DNA of 64,000 nucleotides from Terriglobia bacterium (GTDB taxonomy: Bacteria; Acidobacteriota; Terriglobia; Terriglobales; Acidobacteriaceae). Below are positions 42,463 through 45,275 of this stretch, one piece after another. Location: assembly GCA_032252755.1 (NCBI GenBank), contig JAVUPY010000071.1:1-64000 (forward strand). The letters are read 5' to 3'. Every line of letters begins with the position of its first letter. The stretch's first letter is position 1. The position numbers were made by a program, and so were the translations under genes. Under the pieces are notes generated by a model, which was not told the DNA's origin, did not search any database, and worked only from the letters and a program-made list of their open reading frames with translations.

Positions 42463-44025
42463 CTACGCGCCGCTCTCGGATTTCAACACTTCTTCCTCTT
42501 CTTCTCCGGCCTTCCGCGGCTTCATCAGCGGGAAAAGAATGACGTCGCGAATCGAGTTCGATCCCGTCAGCAGCATCGTGATCCGATCGATCCCGATCCC
42601 TTCGCCGCCGGTTGGTGGCATTCCGAAGCTCAGGGCGCGGATGTAATCCTCGTCCATCTGGTGAGCCTCTTCGTCGCCACGCGCTCGCTCCGAGAGTTGC
42701 TGTTCGAAGCGCCTGCGCTGCTCCTCCGGATCGTTCAACTCGCTGAATGCGTTGGCGATTTCCATTCCGCCGGCGTAAAGCTCGAACCGTTCCACCCACT
42801 CTTCCGGTTCGTCGCGCTTGTTCTTGGAAAGTGGCGAGATGGCGAGCGGGAAGTCGTAAATGAACGTCGGCTGGAACAAGTGCTCCTCGGCGACGGCCTC
42901 GAAGATGTCGGCGATGACGCGGCCGTCGGGTGCGGAGACGTCGAGCGGGAAATTGATATGAGCTTGCTGAAGCGCACGACCAAAGTTCACGAGTTTGTCG
43001 TGACTCGCGAAATCGTCCATGGAGGGCTTAGGGCCGGCGCTTTCCGGCCAGAATTCGCGGATGGCTTCGCGCATGCTCAGGCGGCGGAACTTGCTCCAAT
43101 CGACCTCCTGTCCCTGGAAACTCGCGACGGGCATACCGTTAACCTCGATCGCGACAGTCTTCAGCAGCTCTTCGGTGAAATCCATCAGGTCGTGATAGTC
43201 GGCGTACGCCCAGTAGAACTCGAGCATAGTGAACTCGGGGTTGTGCTGAGTCGAGATGCCTTCGTTGCGGAAGTTGCGATTGATCTCGTAAACGCGGTCA
43301 AGGCCCCCGACGGTAAGTCGCTTGAGGTAAAGTTCGGGCGCGATGCGAAGGTAGAGATCGATGTCCAGCGTGTTGTGATGCGTCACAAACGGCCGCGCTG
43401 CGGCGCCACCATATAGGGGCTGCATCATCGGCGTTTCGACTTCGATGAAACCGCGGGTGTCGAAGAAGTTGCGGATCGCACGAACGATCCTGGCGCGTTT
43501 CTCGAAGACTGCGCGCACCTCCGGGTTCATGATCAGATCGACATAACGCTGGCGATACCGCAGTTCGACATCCTGCAGGCCGTGCCACTTTTCCGGCAGC
43601 GGCAGTAGATCCTTGGCAAGGAACGTGATCTCTTTAACATGAACCGTAAGTTCGCCTGTTCGCGTACGAAAGAGGTACCCTTCGACGCCGATGTGGTCGC
43701 CGTTGTCGAGTAGTTGCTTGAACAGTTCGAATCCCTTTTCACCAACATCGTCTTTCCTGACGTAGATCTGCAAGCGCTCGCCGCCCTGCTGCAAATGGGC
43801 AAACCCAGCCTTTCCCATTAGACGTGGGGTCATCATCCGGCCCGCAACGCGCACGTTTACCCGGTCGGCCTCGAGTTGCTCTCCGTTGCTGGCGGAGTAC
43901 TTCTCGACGATCTCGGGGACGGTGTGCGTATAGGTGAACTTGTAGGGGTAGGCCGGCTGGCCCAGCGCTTCAATCTTCTTCAGCTTCTCTTTGCGTATGG
44001 CGTAAATATCGTCGGCTAAGGACAA
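42463..44025 (-). CDS. lysS: lysyl-tRNA synthetase, class II
   Basis: The 520-residue protein has the OB-fold anticodon-binding domain ([20 protein letters not shown], about residues 60-150) and the class II catalytic core: [20 protein letters not shown] (motif 1 region), [16 protein letters not shown] (motif 2, with the ATP-binding Arg) and [12 protein letters not shown] (motif 3). It charges tRNA-Lys in the cytoplasm. The last 20 residues are Glu/Lys-rich. Its start is 42 bp from the left inverted repeat of the GxxExxY unit, which separates it from nuoA. Confidence 0.96.
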
Positions 44026-44066
44026 GAGGGACCTCGTATGGGGAACGGTCGATTATAAAGGACGGG

Positions 44067-44102
44067 AAAACCTACTCACCACAGAGACACTGAGGCGCAG
44101 AG
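44067..44102 (+). repeat. left terminal inverted repeat of the GxxExxY unit
   Basis: Starts AAAACCTACTCACCACAGAG and ends GGCGCAGAG. It mirrors 44611-44646 with five mismatches in 36 positions, three of them in the outer part. Confidence 0.75.
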
Positions 44103-44211
44103 AATTTCAGGCGAAAACCAAAATGGGAAGATACGCAGCAGCGATGTTGAAAAGCTGTGCAGTGCGGTCGCCAGACGAATGAGAATAGGTGCATGTCTTG
44201 GGCTGGTCTGA

Positions 44212-44585
44212 ATGTCGTGGGACGAGAGAGATCCTCTCACCTATGAGGTAATTGGGGCTGCGATTTGAGGTTCATAGGGCACTGGGCCCGGGGTTGATGG
44301 AATCCGCCTACGAGGAATGCCTCTGTCATGAATTGTTCTTGCGGTCACTGTCATTCAAGCGTCAGGTTCCGATTCCTTTAGTCTACAAAGAAATTCATCT
44401 CGAGTGCGCGTACTACGCTGACATTGTTGTGGCTGAAAGTCTTGTGCCAACTGAAGGCTGTGGAAAGCATTGCCAAAATTCACGAGGCACAACTGCTGAC
44501 CTACATGAAACTGCTCGGTCTCAAGAAAGGTTTACTCGTAAACTTCCACTCCCCGGTACTCAAGGACGGCATAGTACCCGGGTAA
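44212..44585 (+). pseudogene. GxxExxY family protein, two frameshifts
   Basis: Three frames rebuild one full-length GxxExxY protein. From the ATG at 44212 the frame reads MSWDERDPLTYEVIGAAI and hits a stop at an extra T near 44266; the next frame carries EVHRALGPGLMESAYEEC with the name-giving G-L-M-E-S-A-Y; a second +1 shift near 44445 leads to LKAVESIAKIHEAQLLTYM and SPVLKDGIVPG before TAA at 44583. The second shift falls on the Glu of the expected VELK, the catalytic E-x-K of the PD-(D/E)xK nuclease-like fold this family (PF13366) belongs to. The gene is therefore doubly dead, or the sequence has two errors. Confidence 0.82.
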
Positions 44586-44610
44586 CTTTAGGCTTTTAAG
44601 AATCCAGTCC

Positions 44611-44646
44611 CTCTGTGCCTCTGTGTCTCTGTGGTGCATGGGTTTT
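44611..44646 (-). repeat. right terminal inverted repeat of the GxxExxY unit
   Basis: Reads CTCTGTGCCTCTGTGTCTCT then GTGGTG and GGTTTT on the plus strand, the inverted copy of 44067-44102. It ends about 145 bp before the nuoA start. Confidence 0.75.
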
Positions 44647-44791
44647 AGTGACCTAAATCACAGACCCCCCGTTCACTCTCTTTGTATCGTTGAACTCGGC
44701 CGGTTTGGGGCGTAGTATGCCCCTTTCTGGCGGAAGGCAGCTGTCTTTCTCGGCAGTTAGACCGCTTCTGCAGTTGGGAGAAACGAGGGTC

Positions 44792-45148
44792 ATGCCCCAG
44801 AATTATGTCCCCATCTTCATATTTGCCCTGGTCGCGTTCCTGGTGGGCGCCGGGACCGTCGCGCTTTTTGCGCTGGTTCGGCCGCGCCAGCCCGACAAGA
44901 TCAAGTTAATGCCGTACGAATGCGGCATTGACCCATTCGACCAGGCGCGCAAGCGCTACACCATTCGCTTCTACATCGTCGCCATCCTGTTTGTTGTGTT
45001 CGACGTGGAAACGATTTTCCTGTTCCCTTGGGCCGTCCAGTACAAGGCGCTCGGCGTCTTCGGCTTTGTCGAAATGCTGATCTTCCTGGGAATCCTGATC
45101 GTCGGGTACGTGTGGATCTGGAAGAAGGGCGCTCTGGAATGGGTCTAG
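44792..45148 (+). CDS. nuoA: complex I subunit A (NuoA)
   Basis: The ATG at 44792 follows GAGGG and gives 118 residues, the usual NuoA length; the frame is open further upstream. Three membrane helices are evident (FIFALVAFLVGAGTVALFAL, FYIVAILFVVFDVETIFLFP, MLIFLGILIVGYVWIW), with the conserved PYECGIDP loop and FDVETIF. It belongs to the membrane arm of NADH:quinone oxidoreductase, near the quinone channel. It opens the nuo operon; notably nuoB does not follow, and the next gene is nuoC 127 bp on. Confidence 0.95.
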   Translation: MPQNYVPIFIFALVAFLVGAGTVALFALVRPRQPDKIKLMPYECGIDPFDQARKRYTIRFYIVAILFVVFDVETIFLFPWAVQYKALGVFGFVEMLIFLGILIVGYVWIWKKGALEWV

Positions 45149-45275
45149 CCGCTGCCCATCGCAGTGTGATCAAGATCACTAAGCAATGTGAGTGGCGACC
45201 GTCACTGCAGGCCCTTGTGGCTGCTATAACTTAGCGTTCGGGATGATCGCTCTAACCACCCAGGAATAAGCCAGA

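Follow-up and report, generated by a model that had tools for sequence, protein, structure and literature searches.

The question raised by this locus is whether a small gene of the GxxExxY type, lying between its own inverted ends, can form a minimal mobile unit, and if so which enzyme would move it. The locus occupies positions 44067-44646 of the window, by which we mean the whole stretch of 64,000 nucleotides analysed here. The original prediction placed a single GxxExxY gene between two inverted repeats at this point and held that the unit interrupts the interval between lysS and nuoA. The features to which the text refers are the following.

44067-44646, plus strand: whole unit, consisting of left arm, non-coding core, broken GxxExxY gene, core and right arm; delimited by the inverted arms and by relatives without the unit
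44067-44102, plus strand: left arm, with words CACAGAG (44080-44086), CACTGAG (44088-44094) and CGCAGAG (44096-44102); spacers 1,1
44255-44446, plus strand: N-terminal part of GxxExxY, TIGR04256 positions 8-71, first frame
44436-44564, plus strand: C-terminal part of GxxExxY, TIGR04256 positions 69-111, other frame; the ExK glutamate is gone
44577-44610, plus strand: inner right core (GGCTTTTAAGAATC...), similar by eye to the core beside the right arm of some gene-less copies (L072, L082)
44611-44646, minus strand: right arm, with CACAGAG at 44627-44633, at 44619-44625 and at 44611-44617, each on the minus strand; spacers 1,1
42463-44025, minus strand: lysS, left neighbour outside the unit, from the list of open reading frames; name from the original prediction
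44792-45148, plus strand: nuoA, right neighbour outside the unit, with full-length relatives 67-86% identical; name from the original prediction

The unit in the window

A direct count confirms the inverted match of the arms as originally predicted: 31 of 36 positions pair, and 24 of 26 in the inner part. In a repeat search of positions 43500-45200 the arm pair was the sole inverted repeat, with an extended form of 56 nt at 75%. When all 19,087,614 pairs of 36-nt stretches with starts 400-700 nt apart were compared over the whole window, exactly one reached 31 of 36, and this was the pair of window arms; the ten best listed pairs were the same arms in shifted registers. The low complexity of the words, and nothing further, speaks for chance or an assembly artefact, and this has to be set against the one pair in about 19 million in the window and the recurrence of such arms at loci from 18 phyla. 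We therefore reject a chance origin for the window arms and regard the explanation as a whole as negligible.

The ends go beyond what the original prediction described, in that they are three-word arrays and are present at many further gene-free places in the genome. Each arm consists of an outer stretch (AAAACCTACTCAC on the left, GTGCATGGGTTTT on the right) followed by three 7-nt words with 1-nt spacers. The left arm has the order CACAGAG-A-CACTGAG-G-CGCAGAG, and the right arm, read inward from the other side, CACAGAG-A-CACAGAG-G-CACAGAG. The outer part of the left arm (AAAACCTACT) resembles the outer part of the gene-less copies in the same genome.

Between the arms there is one recognisable gene. 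It is of the GxxExxY type (TIGR04256; PF13366), as predicted, and it is frameshifted: the two pieces score 69.3 and 49.0 bits against TIGR04256 (cut-off 35) and 66.7 and 46.5 bits against PF13366 (cut-off 22), and a direct reading of the second frame finds Q in place of the ExK glutamate. Being split into two frames, the window copy is a pseudogene. Elsewhere in this genome GxxExxY is matched only once, over model positions 2-67 of 116. Inverted flanks, of the CGCAGAGG type, are present there as well, with an arm score of 15.5 against 12 for the top cross control; arm scores come from aligning the upstream flank locally to the reverse-complemented downstream flank, and 15 or more is taken as the threshold. 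Since both matches are broken or partial, the system looks extinct in the window genome.

Insertion between lysS and nuoA

A nuoA match is present in 116 of the 120 genomes searched in the family, and for the 29 best nuoA relatives from that family the surroundings were read. In 22 of these lysS adjoins nuoA. Whereas 766 bp separate the two genes in the window, 21 of these 22 relatives have a gap of 92-350 bp; the remaining one has a gap of 1159 bp with a different sequence, and with the N-terminal GxxExxY piece as query only the window's own locus matched. The predicted interruption of the lysS-nuoA interval thus holds, and the gene and its inverted ends form one unit that was inserted there. 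At the left edge, the motif GATTATAAAGGA immediately before the unit is present in five relatives. At the right edge a single relative shows the common stretch (CTAAATCACA) clearly, so this edge is less certain.

Other small inverted arrays, with octamer-like words (e.g. GGCTCTTGG / CCAAGAGCC), were seen by eye in the lysS-nuoA intervals of L124, L138, L141, L142 and L149. Because relatives hold such arrays, the interval between the two genes gives the impression of a recurrent landing site. Outside the window, on the same contig, lies a second NuoA homologue (G000:C71:73292-73633), 47% identical.

Gene-less copies in the window genome

Used as a query in its own genome, the window unit gave 46 matches at E <= 0.001, three of them being the unit itself. 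The pattern CACAGAGNCACNGAG occurs in 50 exact rows, and with up to 2 mismatches 225 times, a modest excess over the 153 of a reversed control. The window and 38 stretches around such repeats together contain 21 convergent arm pairs with a CACCACAGAG edge. Twenty of these hold no gene and measure 70-135 nt, and the remaining one is the 560-nt window unit. An outer AAAACCGAYT-like stretch is common by eye to most pairs and the window unit, while many of the genome's repeats are single arms or have diverged beyond pairing. No signal of a target-site duplication was found in the 21 pairs, the best candidate being no better than shuffles; the copies look old and their edges are uncertain.

One way to account for such ends would be as operators or terminators of the GxxExxY gene, with the dispersed copies as unrelated by-products, and the closeness of the arms to the gene's start and stop would suit that role. 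It would leave unaccounted for both the sites of relatives with and without the unit and the more than 200 word triplets in another genome, G246, many of them in convergent gene-less pairs, and we consider it highly improbable.

Word arrays at GxxExxY genes in many phyla

GxxExxY genes are present, often in several copies, in 143 of the 396 genomes of the phylum sample, in which each species is represented once. Inverted arms scoring at least 15 flank 27 of 28 GxxExxY loci from this sample, chosen as the best-scoring hits; none of 140 shifted controls taken from these loci and none of 30 nuoA loci gave such a score. Arms paired across different phylum loci reach 15 in 71 of 280 cases, because the words are common to the loci. 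A second set consisted of 80 loci from named genomes of 18 phyla (79 bacteria and one archaeon), the best 80 of 575 matches. Among the 75 that were scored, five with short flanks being left out, 48 reached the threshold and 27 fell under it. The counts that reach it are 1 of 375 for shifted controls and 92 of 750 for cross-pairs.

Inward-facing doublets of the word C[AG]CN[AG]AG give a similar view of the same 75 loci, being found upstream in 60, downstream in 60, on both sides in 50 and on at least one side in 70. Outward doublets are found in 16 and 22 of these loci, and of 514 control windows 13 hold word doublets. In a further 41 GxxExxY gene places, 24 are without C[AG]CN[AG]AG triplets on both sides, though several of these have other words; beyond CACAGAG, the word types extend to CACGAAT, CACAGAT and ACAGGAT. 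GxxExxY genes in many phyla thus sit between inverted word-array arms.

Genes of an unrelated family, the four-helix-bundle genes (TIGR02436; L048, L049 and L150-L179), also lie between inverted arrays of tandem 7-9 nt words, which are specific to the locus (AATCGTCA, CTAGCTCC, GAGTGAGG, AGTCTAGGA and others). Arms scoring at least 15 were found at 25 of 28 of these loci and in 0 of 140 shifted controls. The scoring of phylum and four-helix loci left out L090, L105 and four-helix loci shorter than 3.2 kb.

Spacing as a property of the element

Word triplets could be read at both ends of 66 of 109 loci, a set that includes orthologous loci of one genus and leaves out L105, which lies on a cut contig. 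The same two spacer lengths are found at both ends in 61 of the 66, whereas shuffled pairing gives a mean of 15.7 and a maximum of 26. The classes seen are 1,1; 1,2; 2,2; 2,3; 3,4; and 3,5. In the second set of 41 gene places both triplets are present in 17, and the spacer lengths agree in 14 of these. The arm finder searches for C[AG]CN[AG]AG, so that the conservation of word letters is partly by construction, which is not the case for spacer lengths.

Spacing also fits the GxxExxY protein tree. The spacing class changes 21 times on a tree of 59 rows (shuffles: mean 31.8, minimum 26), and 21 times again when congeneric copies are removed (52 rows; mean 28.3, minimum 23); the tree was made by a quick method, with one of 56 inner branches starred and two of 61 rows without a protein left out. 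The letter at word position 5 leans with the tree too (5 changes, 3 of 500 shuffles as low), and that at position 2 does not. Spacing is therefore a property of the element, being equal at both ends and in keeping with the protein tree.

Within multi-copy genomes the arms belong with the individual gene copy. A copy's own two arms have a median score of 23.5 and reach 15 in 33 of 41 cases. When a left arm is instead paired with the right arm of a different copy in that genome, the median is 8.0 and 15 is reached in 5 of 106 cases. The pairs of G249, for example, are of types CACGGAG 1,1, CACAAAG/CACGAAG 2,3 and CGCAAAG 2,2. In the same genome, two GxxExxY genes at locus L355 (G249:C4:150900-153800) are separated by about 1.1 kb, and both have near-perfect CACGGAG arms.

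The spacers also bear on the possibility that the arms act as RNA, forming a long hairpin around the transcript in the style of the 23S rRNA intervening sequences, which the small gene's product would process or by which the gene would be protected. Inverted arms could pair, four-helix-bundle genes, which belong to the intervening-sequence protein family, are also found between inverted arrays, and the Coxiella intervening sequence holds an open reading frame for a protein of the four-helix-bundle type (PMC4990558). However, the spacer letters of the two arms agree at 52%, where shuffling leads one to expect 37%, so that pairing is kept weakly if at all while spacer lengths are kept, and an Rfam scan of four loci returned only miRNA-like hairpins under the gathering scores. 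An RNA role for the arms is in our estimate highly improbable.

One intergenic site in a single genus

A single intergenic site could be followed by eye through 17 species of genus g47. The full element is present in five (G141, G384, G348, G037, G275) and gene-less arms in three, with CACAGAG words in G165 and other words in G108 and G354. One-arm remnants were found in G243, G291 and, faintly, G181. Two species are free of arms (G173 with 72 nt, G099 with 48 nt), and G133, G149, G219 and G337 have other sequence at the site. The gene-less pairs cannot all be deletions of one element: the words of G108 and G354 differ from those of G141, and CACAGAG words spaced by 2 nt are found in G165 alone, where the left side has two and the right side four. 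The pairs of G108 and G354 are better read as separate insertions.

Synonymous sites have reached saturation among the five complete copies, with pS at 0.78-1.0 and pN at 0.16-0.21. Between orthologous arms, differences were counted in 8 of 360 comparisons for the words, 32 of 80 for the spacers and 27 of 60 for the free word position 4, with the reservation that the finder favours matching words. Selection appears to have kept both gene and words over a long stay, and for that reason a REPIN-like way of life fits better than that of a fast transposon. With one intact GxxExxY relative as query, the gene was found at E <= 1e-5 in 8 of 72,556 plasmid records and in 0 of 50,697 phage records.

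Triplets and GxxExxY genes across genomes

A genome was called triplet-rich if it held at least three exact matches to CACAGAG-N(1-3)-CRCNGAG-N(1-3)-CRCNGAG, which was the case in 66 of the 396 genomes. GxxExxY is present in 63 of these 66 (Fisher p about 4e-29, with relatedness ignored) and, counted by genus, in 44 of 45 triplet-rich genera, so that triplets and GxxExxY co-occur over genomes. The exceptions, with triplets and no GxxExxY match, are G112, G290 and G393, the first two of which have a genus-mate with the gene. In the other direction, 80 of the 143 GxxExxY genomes hold fewer than three triplets. Ends placed at random relative to GxxExxY genes were named in the original prediction as an argument against a mobile unit; they do look so placed within the window genome, but not across the 396 genomes, where the triplet-rich ones nearly all carry the gene.

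The same counts bear on an alternative in which the arms are moved in trans by another enzyme, either a RAYT/Y1 transposase or one of a kind not yet recognised, and GxxExxY is a passenger. RAYTs are linked to REPINs of a similar dyad layout (PMC3116915). Of the 66 triplet-rich genomes, 55 have Y1_Tnp genes. So does the window genome, where three of six have inverted flanks scoring at least 15, of other sequence and with palindromic repeats of their own. An unlinked enzyme could move the arms, and it need not be a RAYT. When genomes are divided by gene content, however, the triplet-rich fraction is 53/103 with GxxExxY and Y1, 10/40 with GxxExxY only, 2/164 with Y1 only and 1/89 with neither. 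Moreover, word doublets were found within 200 nt of the matched domain in 0 of 20 Y1 genes of triplet-rich genomes, and no CACCACAGAG-type arm (up to 3 mismatches) lies within 1.5 kb of the six Y1 genes in the window genome. Gene content and Y1 flanks thus disfavour a RAYT as the mover of the word-array arms, and copy-tied arms with a spacing that follows the GxxExxY tree are not readily explained if GxxExxY is a passenger. We consider movement of the arms by another enzyme unlikely, though less so than the RNA or operator readings. The six Y1/RAYT genes of the window genome (L042-L047) lie in several cases near classical palindromic repeats (e.g. CCCCGCACTTACGTGCGGGG), which by eye are unlike the word arrays.

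A similar division was made for the four-helix-bundle gene among handles G000-G297 (297 genomes searched). Triplet-rich genomes make up 43/75 with both genes, 8/30 with GxxExxY only, 2/68 with the four-helix-bundle gene only and 0/125 with neither. A dependence of the triplets on the four-helix-bundle gene is disfavoured by the 2/68.

Whether dispersed triplets share the arm spacing of the resident gene was assessed in two ways. With one gene picked per genome for its CACAGAG-type arms (CGCAGAG in G173), they do so in 11 of 12 genomes; this test scored 11 of the 27 listed triplet genomes and G000, kept only three hand-picked arms in G000, and left out arms near GxxExxY genes (including three rows of G384:C23) and overlapping matches of longer arrays (G259). 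With every arm read counted, adding G165, G275, G246 and G378 and dropping G133 as a tie, the spacing agrees in 14 of 16, where shuffles average 7.7 and 6 of 20,000 were as high. Outside genus g47 the agreement is 5 of 7 (855 of 20,000 shuffles as high), and within g47 there is no signal. That dispersed triplets copy the spacing of the resident GxxExxY gene is thus only suggested.

Many of the 230 triplets in the 6.4-Mb genome of G246 (L260-L289, L320) form convergent pairs whose loops measure about 4-14 nt. A single GxxExxY gene was read in this genome, and only one of its sides bears a triplet of that spacing, of the CACAAAG type.

The GxxExxY protein and a possible mode of movement

The family protein has about 120 codons and forms one compact PD-(D/E)xK-type domain, with no separate DNA-binding domain. 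D69, E79 and K81, the D...ExK triad of PD-(D/E)xK nucleases, are invariant in 62 of 62 family proteins. For the intact relative L182, which comes from an alphaproteobacterial metagenome genome, a structure was predicted with a mean pLDDT of 94.7. Its best solved folds in Foldseek are lambda exonuclease, the Cas4-type Sso0001 and MGME1, all of them weak matches (E 0.007-0.016, none at or below 0.001). PADLOC gave weak matches to Cas4 and Cas4b (E 0.0035 and 0.023), and a PDB sequence search with GxxExxY gave no match. As there is no second domain, reading of the words would need oligomers or the nuclease core itself.

As regards the predicted minimal mobile unit, the gene with its own ends stands as an inserted unit, given the matching arms elsewhere, the copy-tied arms, the unit-free sites and the gene-less pairs. 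Movement of this unit by itself was not observed; the window copy is broken, the other match is partial (2-67 of 116) and 20 of 21 arm pairs are gene-less. On balance, the window unit probably belongs, as a dead copy, to a widespread class of minimal mobile elements, REPIN- or MITE-like, whose predicted nuclease would read the word array and move whatever lies between the arms. A full element would consist of a GxxExxY gene flanked by inverted arms, with about three 7-nt words per arm (CACAGAG, CACGGAG, CGCAGAG, CACGAAG, CACGAAT, ACAGGAT and similar) and spacers set by the element. The nuclease would most likely read the array at both ends, as a spacing-sensitive oligomer, and its cleavage would start the copying or movement of the DNA between them, acting in cis on its own gene and in trans on pairs without a gene. 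Such gene-less pairs, 70-135 nt in the window genome and about 70 nt in G246, would be non-autonomous copies sustained in trans, as REPINs are by RAYTs.

A broader proposal is one that we put forward tentatively and regard as somewhat doubtful. GxxExxY might be a stand-alone mobility nuclease, a minimal relative in kind of Cas4 and lambda exonuclease, which reads spacing-coded arrays of three words and copies the DNA that they bracket, with word and spacing codes specific to the lineage. Together with the four-helix-bundle genes and their parallel arms, such elements might form a new superfamily of word-array elements that would explain many of the small repeats in environmental bacteria.

Comparison with known systems

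The window gene is a member of the PDDEXK_3 / GxxExxY family (PF13366, TIGR04256), whose genes are frequent, yet the available literature on the family mentions neither their ends nor a role. Searches on GxxExxY/PDDEXK_3, the repeat words and the four-helix-bundle names found no description of an association between gene and arms in the literature covered; most subscription papers and bioRxiv preprints fall outside that coverage, and the result is hence no proof of novelty. If GxxExxY does drive a spacing-coded mobile element, a layer of intergenic repeats gains an origin and a nuclease gains a new job that can be tested in vitro, with natural substrates of varied words and spacings at hand for working out the recognition code.

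Miniature inverted-repeat elements (MITEs) of DDE transposons have terminal inverted repeats, gene-less versions, and sites with and without the unit. The elements described here share all of these traits, including occupied and empty sites. They differ in that their ends are spaced word arrays common to many phyla. No target-site duplication signal was seen in the 21 pairs, whose copies look old and whose edges are uncertain.

The intervening sequences of 23S rRNA have inverted arms. Those with an S23/IVP four-helix-bundle gene likewise place a small gene in an inserted, selfish-looking stretch (PMC4990558), and a figure legend of PMC10910872 names the intervening-sequence protein. In contrast, the window unit lies between protein genes and not in rRNA, and it has another gene and other arms.

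REPIN-RAYT systems (Bertels and Rainey 2011, PMC3116915) offer a further comparison. The arms described here are non-palindromic word arrays, whereas REPINs are made of REP hairpins, and they enclose a gene of the PD-(D/E)xK type, whereas a RAYT is a Y1 transposase. The Y1 genes themselves are without the same repeat (0 of 20 in triplet-rich genomes, 0 of 6 in the window genome at up to 3 mismatches). The likeness lies in short inverted doublets, present in many copies per genome, whose spread is apparently tied to a chromosomal gene.
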